Shown here in pieces: positions 34,494 through 39,759 of a stretch of 41,017 nucleotides of DNA. The stretch is from Terriglobales bacterium. Its GTDB lineage: Bacteria; Acidobacteriota; Terriglobia; Terriglobales; Acidobacteriaceae. The first letter of the stretch is position 1. Each line of letters opens with the position of its first letter. A program made the translations under genes and the position numbers. The DNA lies in assembly GCA_015655315.1 (NCBI GenBank), contig JAATFH010000039.1, forward strand, positions 1-41,017. Direction: 5' to 3'. The notes under the pieces are model-generated. The model had not been told where the DNA came from. It made no database searches and saw only the letters and a program-made list of their open reading frames with translations.

Positions 34494-35240
34494 ATGCCAA
34501 AAAACATTACCCTCGAAATTTGTCTCGAATCTGTTGACTCGGTGATCGCTGCCGATCGTGGAGGCGCACAGCGCGTCGAGCTCTGCGCCAATCTGCTGGA
34601 AGGCGGTACGACTCCCAGCGCCGGAACAATCCGTGCAGCGCGGGAAAATGCAAAAATCGCTATCAACGTGATGATTCGACCGCGAGGCGGAGACTTCCTC
34701 TATACCGACACGGAATTTGAGTCGATGCAGCATGACATTCGCATCGCAAAAGAGCTTGGCGCGGATGGCATCGTGCTCGGCCTGCTGCGGGCCGATGGCA
34801 CCGTCGATGTCGAACGCACACGCCAGCTTGTCGAACAGGCGCGCCCTCTGCCAGTCACGTTCCATCGGGCCATCGACGTATCGCGCGATCTGCTGGAGGC
34901 ACTCGAAGACGTGATTTCAGCAGGCGTCACACGTGTGCTTACGTCCGGAGGAGAGCCTTCGGTCGTTGATGGCGCAGCTGTAGTAGCAAAGATGATTGGA
35001 GCCGCGAAGGGCCGCATCGCTGTCATGCCCGGCAGCGGGATTAACCCGGAGAATGTACTGTCAATTCTCGAGTCTACGGACGCAAGCGAGGTGCATATCG
35101 CGCTCGAAGAAGAGGTACCGAGCGGCATGCAGTTCCGCAAGGCGGAAATCCCTATGGGCGGAGTGGATGGACGCGAGTACATTCGCTTTGTGACGCCGGA
35201 GACAGCTGTGCGGAACGTCGTCGAGATTCTGAATCGATAG
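34494..35240 (+). CDS. cutC: CutC family protein
   Basis: The 248-aa TIM-barrel protein shows the family's ordered motifs: LEICLESVDSVIAADRGGAQRVELCANLLEGGTTPS, NVMIRPRGGDFLYTD, GADGIVLGLLRADGTVD, VTFHRAIDVSRD, VLTSGGEP and VMPGSGINPENV. CutC was named for copper homeostasis in E. coli, but its role in copper handling is disputed and the true activity is unknown. A multicopper oxidase gene lies 4.5 kb away, not adjacent. The gene is convergent with fahA with only 3 bp between stops, leaving no room for a terminator. Confidence 0.93.
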   Translation: MPKNITLEICLESVDSVIAADRGGAQRVELCANLLEGGTTPSAGTIRAARENAKIAINVMIRPRGGDFLYTDTEFESMQHDIRIAKELGADGIVLGLLRADGTVDVERTRQLVEQARPLPVTFHRAIDVSRDLLEALEDVISAGVTRVLTSGGEPSVVDGAAVVAKMIGAAKGRIAVMPGSGINPENVLSILESTDASEVHIALEEEVPSGMQFRKAEIPMGGVDGREYIRFVTPETAVRNVVEILNR

Positions 35241-35243
35241 CCT

Positions 35244-36530
35244 TCAGGAAGCGGAAAGGACGATGCCCCGGCATTCACCAAAGCCGATGCGCGGATGACC
35301 TTCCCGCTCGCAATAGCCGCGAAAAAACACCTCGTCTCCATCTTCGAGAAACTTCCGTAGTTCACCCGATGGAAGCTGAACCGGCTCGGCTCCGCGCTGC
35401 GTCATTTCCAGCAGGCAGCCGGCCGATTCCTTCAGAGGCCCTGAGACCGTACCGGAGGCCAGCAGGTCGCCCGGCTGCAGGTTGCAGCCATTGCTTGCGT
35501 GATGCGTGAGCATTTGTGCCAGTGTCCAGTACAAATCCTGTGCGTTCCCCTTGCTGAGGCGTGCAGGCGGCTGTTTCATTTCACGCATGCGCTGCGAAGA
35601 AAGCCAGACCTCCAAAGTAAGATCGATGCCGCCTCGCTGGCGATTGGGCTCGGAATTGAGATAAGGCAGCGGCTGCGGGTCGCCTGCCTGCCGCTCGAAA
35701 GCAGTTGCGCGAAATGGCTCCAAAGCATCCATCGTCACCACCCACGGTGAAATCGTGGTGGCAAAATTCTTCGCGAGAAATGGTCCAAGCGGCTGATACT
35801 CCCACGCCTGGATATCACGCGCGGACCAATCGTTCAGCAGGCAGAGGCCGAAGATATGATCTTCGGCTTTGCTGATGGGTATGGCTTCACCGAGGACATT
35901 CCCTTCTCCGACTAGGAAGCCTATTTCCAGCTCGTAATCGAGCAGCCGGCTGGGACCAAAGACGGGAGAAACAGCGTCCGCTGCTTTCGCCTGACCACTG
36001 GGCCGTTTGATTCCCGTTCCGCTGATGACTATGGATGAAACACGGCCGTGATAGCCGATGGGCACATACTTGTAATTCGGAAGCAGCGGATTATCCGGAC
36101 GGAACAGTTTGCCGACGTTCGTCGCGTGATAGATCGATGCGTAGAAGTCGGTATAGCCGCCAATCGCGGCAGGCAGTTGCATCGTAACTTCAGACATGCG
36201 ATGCAGCAGACGTTCAGTCTTGATGCGTAGTTCTGGCGCGGCATCAACACGGAGGATTTCCATGAGCCGCGTGCGCACCGATGACAAAGCTCGCCGGCCC
36301 TGCGACATGAAACGATTGAGCGTTAATCCGGCGCATGCGTGCTGGACCGCAGGATCTAGAGTGCGCAGCAAACCGTGCTCCGCACAAGCGCGAACATCGA
36401 GCACACTGTCTCCAATAGCGACGCCGATGCGCTGGTTAAGGCTGGAGGTGGAGAAAACTCCGAAGGGCAGGTTCAGCAGGGGGAAATCTGTCTTGCTGTC
36501 GTTCGCAGATTCCACCCAGCTGGTTTCCAT
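35244..36530 (-). CDS. fahA: Fumarylacetoacetase
   Basis: The protein has the FAH N-terminal SH3-like domain (FPLLNLPFGVFSTSS, RIGVAIGDSVLDVR) and the catalytic domain with YKYVPIGYHGRVSSIVISGTGIKRPSGQ, metal ligands in LLDYELEIGFLVG, and NDWSARDIQAWEYQPLGPFLAKNFATTISPWVV. ATG 36530 lies 2 bp after the upstream stop with GGGGTGG eight bases before it, so it is preferred to GTG 36542; the product is 428 aa. It hydrolyses fumarylacetoacetate to fumarate and acetoacetate, the last step of tyrosine/homogentisate breakdown. It is the third gene of the hmgA operon. Confidence 0.95.
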   Translation of the reverse strand: METSWVESANDSKTDFPLLNLPFGVFSTSSLNQRIGVAIGDSVLDVRACAEHGLLRTLDPAVQHACAGLTLNRFMSQGRRALSSVRTRLMEILRVDAAPELRIKTERLLHRMSEVTMQLPAAIGGYTDFYASIYHATNVGKLFRPDNPLLPNYKYVPIGYHGRVSSIVISGTGIKRPSGQAKAADAVSPVFGPSRLLDYELEIGFLVGEGNVLGEAIPISKAEDHIFGLCLLNDWSARDIQAWEYQPLGPFLAKNFATTISPWVVTMDALEPFRATAFERQAGDPQPLPYLNSEPNRQRGGIDLTLEVWLSSQRMREMKQPPARLSKGNAQDLYWTLAQMLTHHASNGCNLQPGDLLASGTVSGPLKESAGCLLEMTQRGAEPVQLPSGELRKFLEDGDEVFFRGYCEREGHPRIGFGECRGIVLSAS

Positions 36531-36532
36531 TC

Positions 36533-37405
36533 TCAAAACCACCCCAATGCTCTCAGTTCGTCGACCGGCTCAGTAAAGGAACAGGAACCGAATCCAATTG
36601 CGAAATTCTCGCGGGCAGTTTCGATCTGTTTCGTCGATAGACGATGATTTTTCCATTGCAGAGTATCTTTCTCCCACTGAAAGGCAGTGGGAGATTGCTC
36701 ATTCAGCAGGTCGATGACTTCCTCTTCCGTCGCTCCCTGATATGCAATCGATGCTGCTACAAATACATTGATGAAGCCATGCATAAGAGCAGTTGCGCTG
36801 CTCTCTTCATACGTAAGCTTCTGCGTGGAACGCCTTGGATGATGCAGACCCGCCGTCGCCTTAAATGGTACTTTCGCATCCGCACAGGCAATGAGAAAGC
36901 CAGCAAGATCCTGCACGCTGGGAATCGCGGCGGCGGTGATACCTCCGGTGCGGATCTTCGCTCTCGCATCGTATTTTTTCAGGACAGGCAGAAACTGACT
37001 GCTCTGCTGTGGTGGAAATTCCACGTAAGCTGCCATGCCGGACGGTACGAGCTTCAAATGCCTCTCGACCTGGGCAAGGTCCGTGGCTTTGAATTCGATA
37101 GCATCGAGATACGCCGCACCTTCGCTGAACGATGTCACCAGATTTTCATCCTCGTCAGCGTCGTCCGTGCTCAATACACTTAAAAGCCACGGAGAACCCA
37201 GTTCGCTGCAGCAGGCTTCAATAAAAGCTGCAAAGAATTCGGGCAATCTCTGCGCGGGAACGACAAAACGGCCGAGCATCCATGCGTCATCGCTCGCCTG
37301 ATAGGTGGAGTAATTTCGAACCGCCGTCTGCATATCGAGAGACGCTGGCGGGAAGAGGCCGGCGTAATCGATCAATCCGCCGAACAGAGCGCGCGCTGCT
37401 GTCAT
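36533..37405 (-). CDS. Uncharacterised protein in the homogentisate operon
   Basis: The 290-aa product starts MTAARALFGGLIDYAGLFPPASLDMQTAVRNY and contains AKIRTGGITAAAIPSVQDLAGFLIAC, PFKATAGLHHPRR and ALMHGFINVFVAA. The alternating strands and helices with basic and histidine residues at strand ends look like a TIM-barrel-type enzyme, but no named family is recognised. GAGG precedes the ATG. It lies 11 bp after hmgA and 2 bp before fahA, so it is almost certainly co-transcribed. The isomerase expected between those two steps is not otherwise visible, which makes this protein a candidate for that step or for an accessory role. Confidence 0.85.
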   Translation of the reverse strand: MTAARALFGGLIDYAGLFPPASLDMQTAVRNYSTYQASDDAWMLGRFVVPAQRLPEFFAAFIEACCSELGSPWLLSVLSTDDADEDENLVTSFSEGAAYLDAIEFKATDLAQVERHLKLVPSGMAAYVEFPPQQSSQFLPVLKKYDARAKIRTGGITAAAIPSVQDLAGFLIACADAKVPFKATAGLHHPRRSTQKLTYEESSATALMHGFINVFVAASIAYQGATEEEVIDLLNEQSPTAFQWEKDTLQWKNHRLSTKQIETARENFAIGFGSCSFTEPVDELRALGWF

Positions 37406-37416
37406 TCTTTCATTCC

Positions 37417-38727
37417 TCAGCTTGTTTTATCGCCGGACTGAAAGTGTTTCTTCAATCCCTGCCAGCACTCGTAGTACTCATGTTGCAGGATTTTTGTTTC
37501 CAGCGCGAATTTAGTGGGGCGCACGGCGAGCTGCGTTTCGAACATAAATGCCAGCGTATTGCCGAGATATTGCGGCTTGAGTTCCGCTGCGGAAGCGCGC
37601 TCGAAGGTTTCGGCATCCGGGCCGTGTCCTGCCATGCAGTTATGCAGGCTCGCGCCGCCGGGGACAAAGCCCTCCGCCTTTGCGTCGTATTGACCGAAGA
37701 TAAGACCCATGAACTCGTTCATCATGTTGCGATGAAACCACGGTGGACGGAAGGTATGCTCGGCCACCATCCAGCGTGGCGGGAAGATGGCGAAGTCTAC
37801 ATTCGCGGTTCCGGGAATCGTGGAAGGCGCGGTAAGTACTGTATAAATGGACGGATCCGGGTGATCGAAGGAAACGGTATTGATGCAGTTGAAGTTTTTC
37901 AGATCATATTTGTAAGGCGCATAGTTGCCGTGCCACGCCACAACATCGAGCGGCGAGTGATCGATCTCGGCAACCCAGAGATTGCCGAGAAACTTGCTCA
38001 CGATCTGGAAGCTGCCTTCGCGGTCTTCATAGGCAGCGACGGGATAGAGGAAATCGCGCGCGTTGGCTAATCCGTTGGCTCCGATGGGGCCAAGTTCGGG
38101 CAGCCGGAACGGCTGGCTGTAGTTTTCGCAGATGTAGCCGCGCGCCGAGGCTTCTTCGAGGACGACGCGGAATTTCAATCCGCGCGGTAGAACGCAGATT
38201 TCTCCGGGAGCGACGCCGAGAATCCCCAATTCAGTATGGATGCGCAGTGAGCCCTGCTGAGGAACGAGCAGTAATTCGCCATCGGCGTTGTAGAAGAAGC
38301 GATCCTCCATCGATTTGGTGACGGCATAGATGTGAATACCTAATCCCGCTTGCATCGCAGGATCGCCATTGCCTCCGAGCGTGATAATGCCGTCGACAAA
38401 ATCCGTTGGTTCAGGCGGGATAGGCAATGGGTCCCAGCGAAGCTGATTGGGAGGCGTCGGAACCTCGGTAAATGGGCCGCTGCGAATGAGGCGCGCAGGA
38501 TACTCTTCGTATGGCTTGTGCGTTACCGACGGCTTGATGCGGTACGTCCAGGTGCGGCGGTTGGTGTGACGTGGCGAGGTGAACGATGTTCCGCTGAACT
38601 GCTCTGTGTAAAGGCCGAGCGCGTGTTTTTGCGGCGCGTTCTGCCCTTCCGGGAGTCCGCCCGCAACCGCTTCGGTGGCGAACTCGTTGGCGAATCCTGA
38701 CTGATAGTCGAGCCTGGAGGCTGTCAT
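37417..38727 (-). CDS. hmgA: Homogentisate 1,2-dioxygenase
   Basis: ATG 38727 is preferred to 38739 because GGGAG precedes it at the right distance (436 aa). The cupin-type sequence includes [13 protein letters not shown] near the start, [25 protein letters not shown], and the non-haem iron ligands His and Glu in [12 protein letters not shown] plus a His in [11 protein letters not shown]. It opens the ring of homogentisate with O2 to give maleylacetoacetate. It is the first gene of the operon hmgA-orf290-fahA. Repeat copy 3 lies between it and the upstream sirtuin gene. Confidence 0.96.
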
Positions 38728-38802
38728 CGTGTCTCCCATAACTATAGCGTCAAAACTCTATAAGCTACCCGCAGGCGTATGGCTTTGGCAAACGCTCAAG
38801 CG

Positions 38803-39019
38803 CTAGGCTGTATCGACATATAGAACACCTTGGTTGTCATCCTGAGCGGAGTATGACGCGTTTTTTGCGTCATACGCAGTCGAAGGATCTGCTTTTTCCT
38901 GGCTCCCCCCACATTTTCGCTCACCGAAAAGAAAAACAGATCCTTCGCCTCGGCTCAGGATGACAACTCTTTGTTGAAATAAATACTTTCGCTTGCGCTT
39001 ATATGTCGATACCGCCTAG
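38803..39019. repeat. Palindromic CTAG-bounded element, copy 3 (most complete)
   Basis: The 18-bp ends CTAGGCTGTATCGACATA (38803-38820) and TATGTCGATACCGCCTAG (39002-39019) are inverted repeats with one mismatch. Inside are the 15-bp arms GTTGTCATCCTGAGC/GCTCAGGATGACAAC, a one-sided hairpin GTATGACGC-GTTTTTT-GCGTCATAC, and arms GAAGGATCTG/CAGATCCTTC around the apical loop. The right CTAG provides the TAG stop of the sirtuin gene. At 217 bp with no ORF it fits a MITE-like non-autonomous element. It could also act as a terminator or attenuator between the sirtuin gene and hmgA. Confidence 0.88.
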
Positions 39020-39759
39020 GGCTCGACGGAAAATAGATTCGGCAGCACTTCGCCTGCTTTGCCAAGTATGACTTCCGTAAATGCCCCTGCATTCAGCGGA
39101 GGTTCCGGTCCCACATAATAAGTTCGGACCCTGGGCGTGGCGGGTAGATTGCGTTGTCTGGCCCAGTGCACGAAGCTTGCCGCCGGGTGAACATTTCCCG
39201 ACGTACCGACAACGATCATCACACTGCAGCGGTCGATTTCCCGCATGATGCGGTCCATCTCCAGCGGGCATTCACCAAACCAGACAATATGCGGGCGAAC
39301 CTGCGCGCCACAAATGCACGCCGGAATTTGCGCTGCGGATTCATAGAGATTTCTATCCGAGAATACCGGCTCGCCGCAGTTCGCTTCGCAGCGCGAGGAG
39401 AATAGCTCTCCATGCATGTGAACCAGATTATGCGATCCCGCGCGTTCGTGAAGATCGTCAACATTTTGCGTGCAGAGAAAGAACCTCTCTCCGATCTGCG
39501 ATTCGAGAGCAGCCAAAGCGTGATGGGCCGGGTTTGGCTCACACCGCTCCGCGTCGCGCCGGCGCATGGAATAAAACTGCCACACCAGTTCAGGATTTGC
39601 TTCCCATGCCTCCGGAGTCGCCACATCCTCCACGCGATGGCCGCTCCATAGACCATCGCTGTCACGAAACGTAGGAAGACCGCTCTCGGCGCTGATTCCT
39701 GCACCGGTGAGAACGAAGACGCGTTCCTGATTTCCGATTTGAATGATGTTTGTGCTCAC
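39016..39759 (-). CDS. cobB: SIR2 family NAD-dependent protein deacylase, class III
   Basis: The Rossmann motif GAGISAESGLPTFR (19-32), QNVDDLHERAG (~98-108) and catalytic H116 (HMHGEL) are intact. Zinc cysteines are C124/C128 and C148/C150. Y63-x-x-R66 (FYSMRRR) is the class III pair that binds succinyl or malonyl lysine in SIRT5 and CobB, so desuccinylase/demalonylase activity is likely alongside deacetylation. It is cytoplasmic and consumes NAD+ to yield O-acyl-ADP-ribose. The stop TAG lies within repeat copy 3. It is adjacent to the multicopper oxidase gene on the same strand (3 bp). Confidence 0.93.
   Translation of the reverse strand: MSTNIIQIGNQERVFVLTGAGISAESGLPTFRDSDGLWSGHRVEDVATPEAWEANPELVWQFYSMRRRDAERCEPNPAHHALAALESQIGERFFLCTQNVDDLHERAGSHNLVHMHGELFSSRCEANCGEPVFSDRNLYESAAQIPACICGAQVRPHIVWFGECPLEMDRIMREIDRCSVMIVVGTSGNVHPAASFVHWARQRNLPATPRVRTYYVGPEPPLNAGAFTEVILGKAGEVLPNLFSVEP

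Follow-up and report, generated by a model that had tools for sequence, protein, structure and literature searches.

The window, that is, the whole stretch of 41,017 nucleotides that was analysed, carries three closely spaced genes on the minus strand, read in the order hmgA, ORF290 and fahA (Table 1). The gap between hmgA and ORF290 is 11 bp and that between ORF290 and fahA is 2 bp, the fahA start being taken as the ATG at 36530, 2 bp past the ORF290 stop. ORF290 also starts with ATG, preceded by an AGGA-type ribosome site. Compared with its nearest congener, ORF290 shows 58, 33 and 147 differences at codon positions 1, 2 and 3, and the frame is therefore under protein-level selection. The initial annotation of this DNA had given the same position and spacing for ORF290, and both agree with the coordinates of the ORF and its neighbours. 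It had also noted that the operon lacks maiA, the gene for the glutathione-dependent maleylacetoacetate isomerase; there is none in the operon, and none scored over cut-off elsewhere in the draft genome (77.5% completeness). On its upstream side, hmgA is preceded on the same strand by a Sir2-family deacylase gene (39016-39759); downstream, the operon is followed by a CutC-family gene (34494-35240) on the opposite strand.

Table 1. Genes of the operon and conserved residues of the ORF290 protein, with their positions in the window
Feature	Position	Strand	Basis
hmgA, homogentisate 1,2-dioxygenase (product maleylacetoacetate)	37417-38739	minus	TIGR01015, 696 bits vs cut-off 511, E 1e-209
ORF290, proposed glutathione-independent maleylacetoacetate isomerase, 290 aa	36533-37405	minus	predicted (beta/alpha)8 barrel
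fahA, fumarylacetoacetase (substrate fumarylacetoacetate)	35244-36530	minus	TIGR01266, 568 bits vs cut-off 375, E 1e-170
Glu129, end of strand 5	37019-37021	minus	106/106
Lys150 and Arg152 (KxRxGG), on strand 6 (148-152)	36950-36958	minus	106/106
Lys182-His189 (KATAGLHH), on and after strand 7	36839-36862	minus	K 105/106, H188 106/106, H189 104/106
Asn213 (MHGFxN), long segment between strands 7 and 8	36767-36769	minus	106/106
Cys275, candidate catalytic thiol just past barrel strand 8 (269-274)	36581-36583	minus	C in 105/105

Predicted fold and conserved residues of ORF290

ORF290 had no matches in Pfam, NCBIfam, PHROGs, PADLOC or the PDB sequences, and its relatives were likewise without a match in the family databases searched. 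Searches of the PDB sequences with the protein and with the family profile returned noise only. Neither TIGR01262 nor a glutathione-transferase domain (Pfam, NCBIfam) matched ORF290, and the FAA_hydrolase domain PF01557, which is present in the FahA neighbour, was not found in it. The gene was absent from the phage records searched.

An AlphaFold2 model of ORF290 built from an 18-member alignment has a pLDDT of 93.4 and a pTM of 0.91. The predicted strands (residues 12-14, 44-50, 73-78, 98-106, 125-129, 148-152, 181-184 and 269-274) alternate with helices, and the fold is confidently predicted to be a (beta/alpha)8 TIM barrel. An alpha/beta barrel had been guessed from the sequence alone, and the fold assignment proposed with that guess has returned a confident barrel whose strand ends bear conserved polar residues. 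The protein does contain KIRTGG, FKATAGLHHP and MHGFIN, the motifs that had also been singled out, and across the family the cores of these motifs vary little or not at all. Twelve or more positions stand out in an alignment of 106 homologues: E129, K150, R152, G154, G155, P162, T184, G186, H188, G210, N213 and G273 are invariant in all 106, E104 and C275 are unchanged in all 105 homologues that have a residue there, and K182 and H189 are kept in 105 and 104 of the 106, respectively. Barrel enzymes have their active sites at the C-terminal ends of the strands, and in the model most of the invariant polar residues of ORF290 lie on or just past these ends, with N213 between strands 7 and 8. The geometry of the putative pocket is deduced from the strand positions in the predicted model.

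A Foldseek comparison of the model with the PDB gave weak matches only and no solved relative. The best natural match was deoxyribose-phosphate aldolase, DeoC (E 1e-3, TM ~0.46, 13% identity). Homology to DeoC was not supported, as the profile comparison was not significant (hhalign probability 0.3%) and ORF290 has no Pfam match.

Spread of the family and its linkage to fumarylacetoacetase

ORF290 is present in 20 of 61 related genomes, and the hmgA-ORF290-fah arrangement of the window was found in all 13 of the first relative loci (L001-L013). A scan of GTDB genomes returned at least 570 relatives, and the best 80 of these loci include Acidobacteriota, Gemmatimonadota, Chloroflexota, Planctomycetota, Cyanobacteriota, Chlorobiota, Ignavibacteriota and Fibrobacterota. 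The family is also found in plasmid records of Actinomycetota (Streptomyces, Rhodococcus, Pseudonocardia, Nonomuraea and Tsukamurella) and Bacillota (Priestia); where the homologues on these plasmids are annotated at all, RefSeq labels them as hypothetical protein. ORF290 is a member of an unnamed, real, enzyme-like protein family in at least 10 bacterial phyla. One genome, G318 (locus L044), is titled Deltaproteobacteria, whereas its taxonomy is seemingly that of the window's phylum. A survey centred on G318 was rejected as representing an independent phylum, the genomes returned being already-seen Acidobacteriota.

Linkage was assessed in the best 80 genome loci, 76 of which have at least 1 kb of downstream sequence. 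A fah gene lies on the same strand no more than 300 bp downstream of ORF290 in 58 of these 76 loci, whereas homogentisate dioxygenase (HGD) lies no more than 300 bp upstream in only 19 of the 80, which makes fah the constant partner of ORF290. Where fah is not adjacent it was found elsewhere in the same genome. A full-length fumarylacetoacetase over cut-off was detected in all 50 ORF290 genomes searched, which are mostly from other phyla, and an HGD match was detected in 48 of the 50 (10 of the classic type and 38 of a divergent type). The divergent dioxygenase is ~390 aa long, is 24-28% identical to HmgA and scores far below the TIGR01015 cut-off; examples are found at L036:4808-5980, L054, L087 and L115:5760-6962. 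It is the usual ORF290 partner outside the window's relatives.

Fumarylacetoacetase over cut-off was found in 58 of 247 acidobacterial genomes, and these were compared with 22 fah-negative genomes. ORF290 occurs in 48/58 of the former and 0/22 of the latter (Fisher p 2e-12, a guide only as the genomes are related), so that fah is present in 48/48 acidobacterial carriers. An HGD match was obtained in 57/58 fah-positive vs 1/22 fah-negative genomes. This acidobacterial set of 80 genomes overlaps slightly with the 50-genome set, at least two genomes being in common.

Operons of the form HGD-ORF290-fahA recur in Streptomyces, Rhodococcus, Pseudonocardia, Tsukamurella and Nonomuraea, and Priestia has hppD-ORF290-fahA plus HGD. 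For Streptomyces there are 11 plasmid records with fah and 11 with ORF290, and for Priestia six of each, with ORF290 beside fah. The Rhodococcus plasmid operons also have FAD monooxygenase genes, through which other substrates could feed in, and the substrate of ORF290 might then be a by-product or the product of some other ring cleavage in these operons. This is very improbable, however, as any such feed still passes HGD and FahA, and the ORF290-fah pair recurs while no other neighbour is constant. The association of ORF290 with fumarylacetoacetase is very strong, and conservation of the gene with hmgA and fahA, which had been put forward as a check, holds across phyla. Given its conserved linkage with HGD and fahA, ORF290 belongs to a tyrosine (homogentisate) catabolic operon. 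The association is firmer evidence for the pathway than for the particular reaction.

MaiA, glutathione and genomes with neither gene

MaiA was not found over the curated cut-off in any of the 80 acidobacterial genomes or of the 50 ORF290 genomes from many phyla; the same search does detect maiA in Caulobacter. Glutathione synthetase over cut-off was found in one of the 58 acidobacterial fah-positive genomes (57/58 were without it) but in 6/6 cyanobacteria tested, and it was not found in the window's own draft genome (77.5% complete). There are thus cyanobacteria that carry ORF290 and make glutathione as well. ORF290 therefore goes with a lack of MaiA and, in most but not all cases, with a lack of glutathione. 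The anti-occurrence with maiA that had been proposed as a check is seen in the ORF290 genomes tested, where maiA is absent at this cut-off. On plasmids of Pseudomonadota maiA adjoins fahA, in the slot held by ORF290 in Streptomyces and Priestia. The sole genome with maiA over cut-off in the later sample of 247 genomes is without ORF290. In that genome (G547, locus L148) maiA adjoins a short 326-aa FAA hydrolase, a gene pair known from gammaproteobacteria, and transfer or bin contamination is possible.

Ten acidobacterial fah-positive genomes are without ORF290, and nine of them have HmgA, a full-length FahA and no MaiA over cut-off. The acidobacterial loci with HmgA and FahA and neither isomerase gene are L102, L103, L104, L105/L135, L106/L138, L107/L137, L108, L113/L136 and L140/L139. 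On the Fah tree the ORF290-negative genomes need ~5 changes, and the absences thus look like repeated, independent losses. No recognisable or shared substitute isomerase was found in their hmgA/fah neighbourhoods. The genes shared near these loci include HPPD, a TonB-type receptor and an RND pump, all three named from a reading of the sequences, as well as an FAA-hydrolase-related protein of 255 aa and others. On a Nocardia farcinica replicon (L146) HGD is followed directly by fah, and ORF290 is missing from the 9 kb examined.

Cells that have HGD and fah and neither gene must rely on spontaneous isomerisation, on another isomerase or on a FahA able to act on the cis isomer. Direct use of maleylacetoacetate by FahA, which the initial annotation offered as an alternative, may apply to this minority of genomes. 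Genomes of this kind limit how far ORF290 can be called indispensable. They also lend something to the idea that ORF290 is not itself an enzyme but assists HmgA or FahA or their maturation, with isomerisation being spontaneous or carried out by FahA. Such a role is unlikely, as a barrel with more than 12 positions unchanged in at least 10 phyla, and with Lys, Arg, Glu, His, Asn and Cys near the strand ends, has the look of an active site. In addition, ORF290 partners two very different dioxygenase types and so is not tied to one HmgA.

Proposed function and comparison with known systems

From the computed operon position, co-occurrence, absence of MaiA, predicted barrel and invariant residues we infer the reaction and the chemistry of ORF290. 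It is probably a glutathione-independent maleylacetoacetate cis-trans isomerase with a TIM barrel, filling the step between HmgA and FahA where MaiA is absent. HmgA would open homogentisate to give maleylacetoacetate, ORF290 would turn the double bond from cis to trans without glutathione to give fumarylacetoacetate, and FahA would split the latter into fumarate and acetoacetate. In the MaiA mechanism the thiol of glutathione adds to the double bond. In ORF290, C275 near strand 8 may add reversibly to the double bond in place of this thiol, with K150, R152, H188 and N213 holding the carboxylate and the dione. Alternatively, a Schiff base on K182 or K150 could loosen the bond.

ORF290 might also be another enzyme of the same step, for example a keto-enol tautomerase or a hydrolase that cleaves maleylacetoacetate directly to maleate and acetoacetate. 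Operon logic alone does not distinguish these reactions, and a passage in PMC4457819 cites a maleylacetoacetate hydrolase reported for some Bacillus. A direct hydrolase would make fumarylacetoacetase needless, yet the full-length enzyme is retained in every ORF290 genome tested, as the nearest gene, which makes the hydrolase less likely; the maleate formed would also require a route of its own. Altogether, another enzyme of this step is an unlikely reading. Of the options in the initial annotation (a glutathione-independent isomerase, another hydrolase of the pathway, or direct use by FahA), the isomerase agrees best with a full-length fumarylacetoacetase being the constant partner of ORF290. 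The case is stronger than the initial annotation put it: this barrel family, as yet without a name, goes with fumarylacetoacetase in at least 10 phyla and complements MaiA, and it is the leading candidate for the glutathione-independent isomerase. It also seems reasonably plausible, though with less assurance than the reaction itself, that ORF290 is the founding member of a previously undescribed TIM-barrel family, made up of cis-trans isomerases that need no cofactor, use a protein-borne thiol, serve most homogentisate-degrading bacteria lacking MaiA and are an independent invention unrelated to the known isomerases of this kind.

Textbooks present the fourth step in the aerobic degradation of tyrosine and phenylalanine as glutathione chemistry, yet many phyla run the pathway without MaiA and mostly without glutathione. 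Glutathione-independent maleylacetoacetate isomerase activity was reported in Gram-positive bacteria in the 1980s. We know of no gene that has been assigned to this activity, and a literature search, with most subscription journals outside its scope, returned no gene assignment for a glutathione-independent maleylacetoacetate isomerase. If the proposal is correct, ORF290 explains this orphan activity, and one family of 'hypothetical proteins' outside Pfam and NCBIfam closes the gap in at least 10 phyla. It would also be a clear case of one reaction being solved by an unrelated fold without a small thiol. A 2015 study of a Bacillus, a Gram-positive bacterium, could identify no maleylacetoacetate isomerase gene and stated that the fate of the intermediate needs more work (PMC4457819).

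ORF290 shares with MaiA (GST-zeta, TIGR01262) the proposed reaction and the operon slot beside fahA. However, it has no sequence match to MaiA, and its predicted barrel differs from the thioredoxin-like plus helical GST fold of MaiA. The hosts of ORF290 are mostly without glutathione, and no genome of the sets tested had both ORF290 and a MaiA over cut-off. The resemblance to DeoC lies in the fold and in the lysines of strands 6 and 7 (KIRTGG and KATAGL), which recall the DeoC lysine motifs, although the structural match is weak. Mycothiol-dependent maleylpyruvate isomerase is a DinB-like, thiol-based cis-trans isomerase of glutathione-free bacteria; its fold and family differ from those of ORF290, which has no Pfam match. 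Maleate cis-trans isomerase has the Asp/Glu racemase fold and isomerises a cis dicarboxylate without a cofactor by means of protein cysteines. It is not a TIM barrel and has no sequence match with ORF290, but its cysteine chemistry is that proposed for ORF290.
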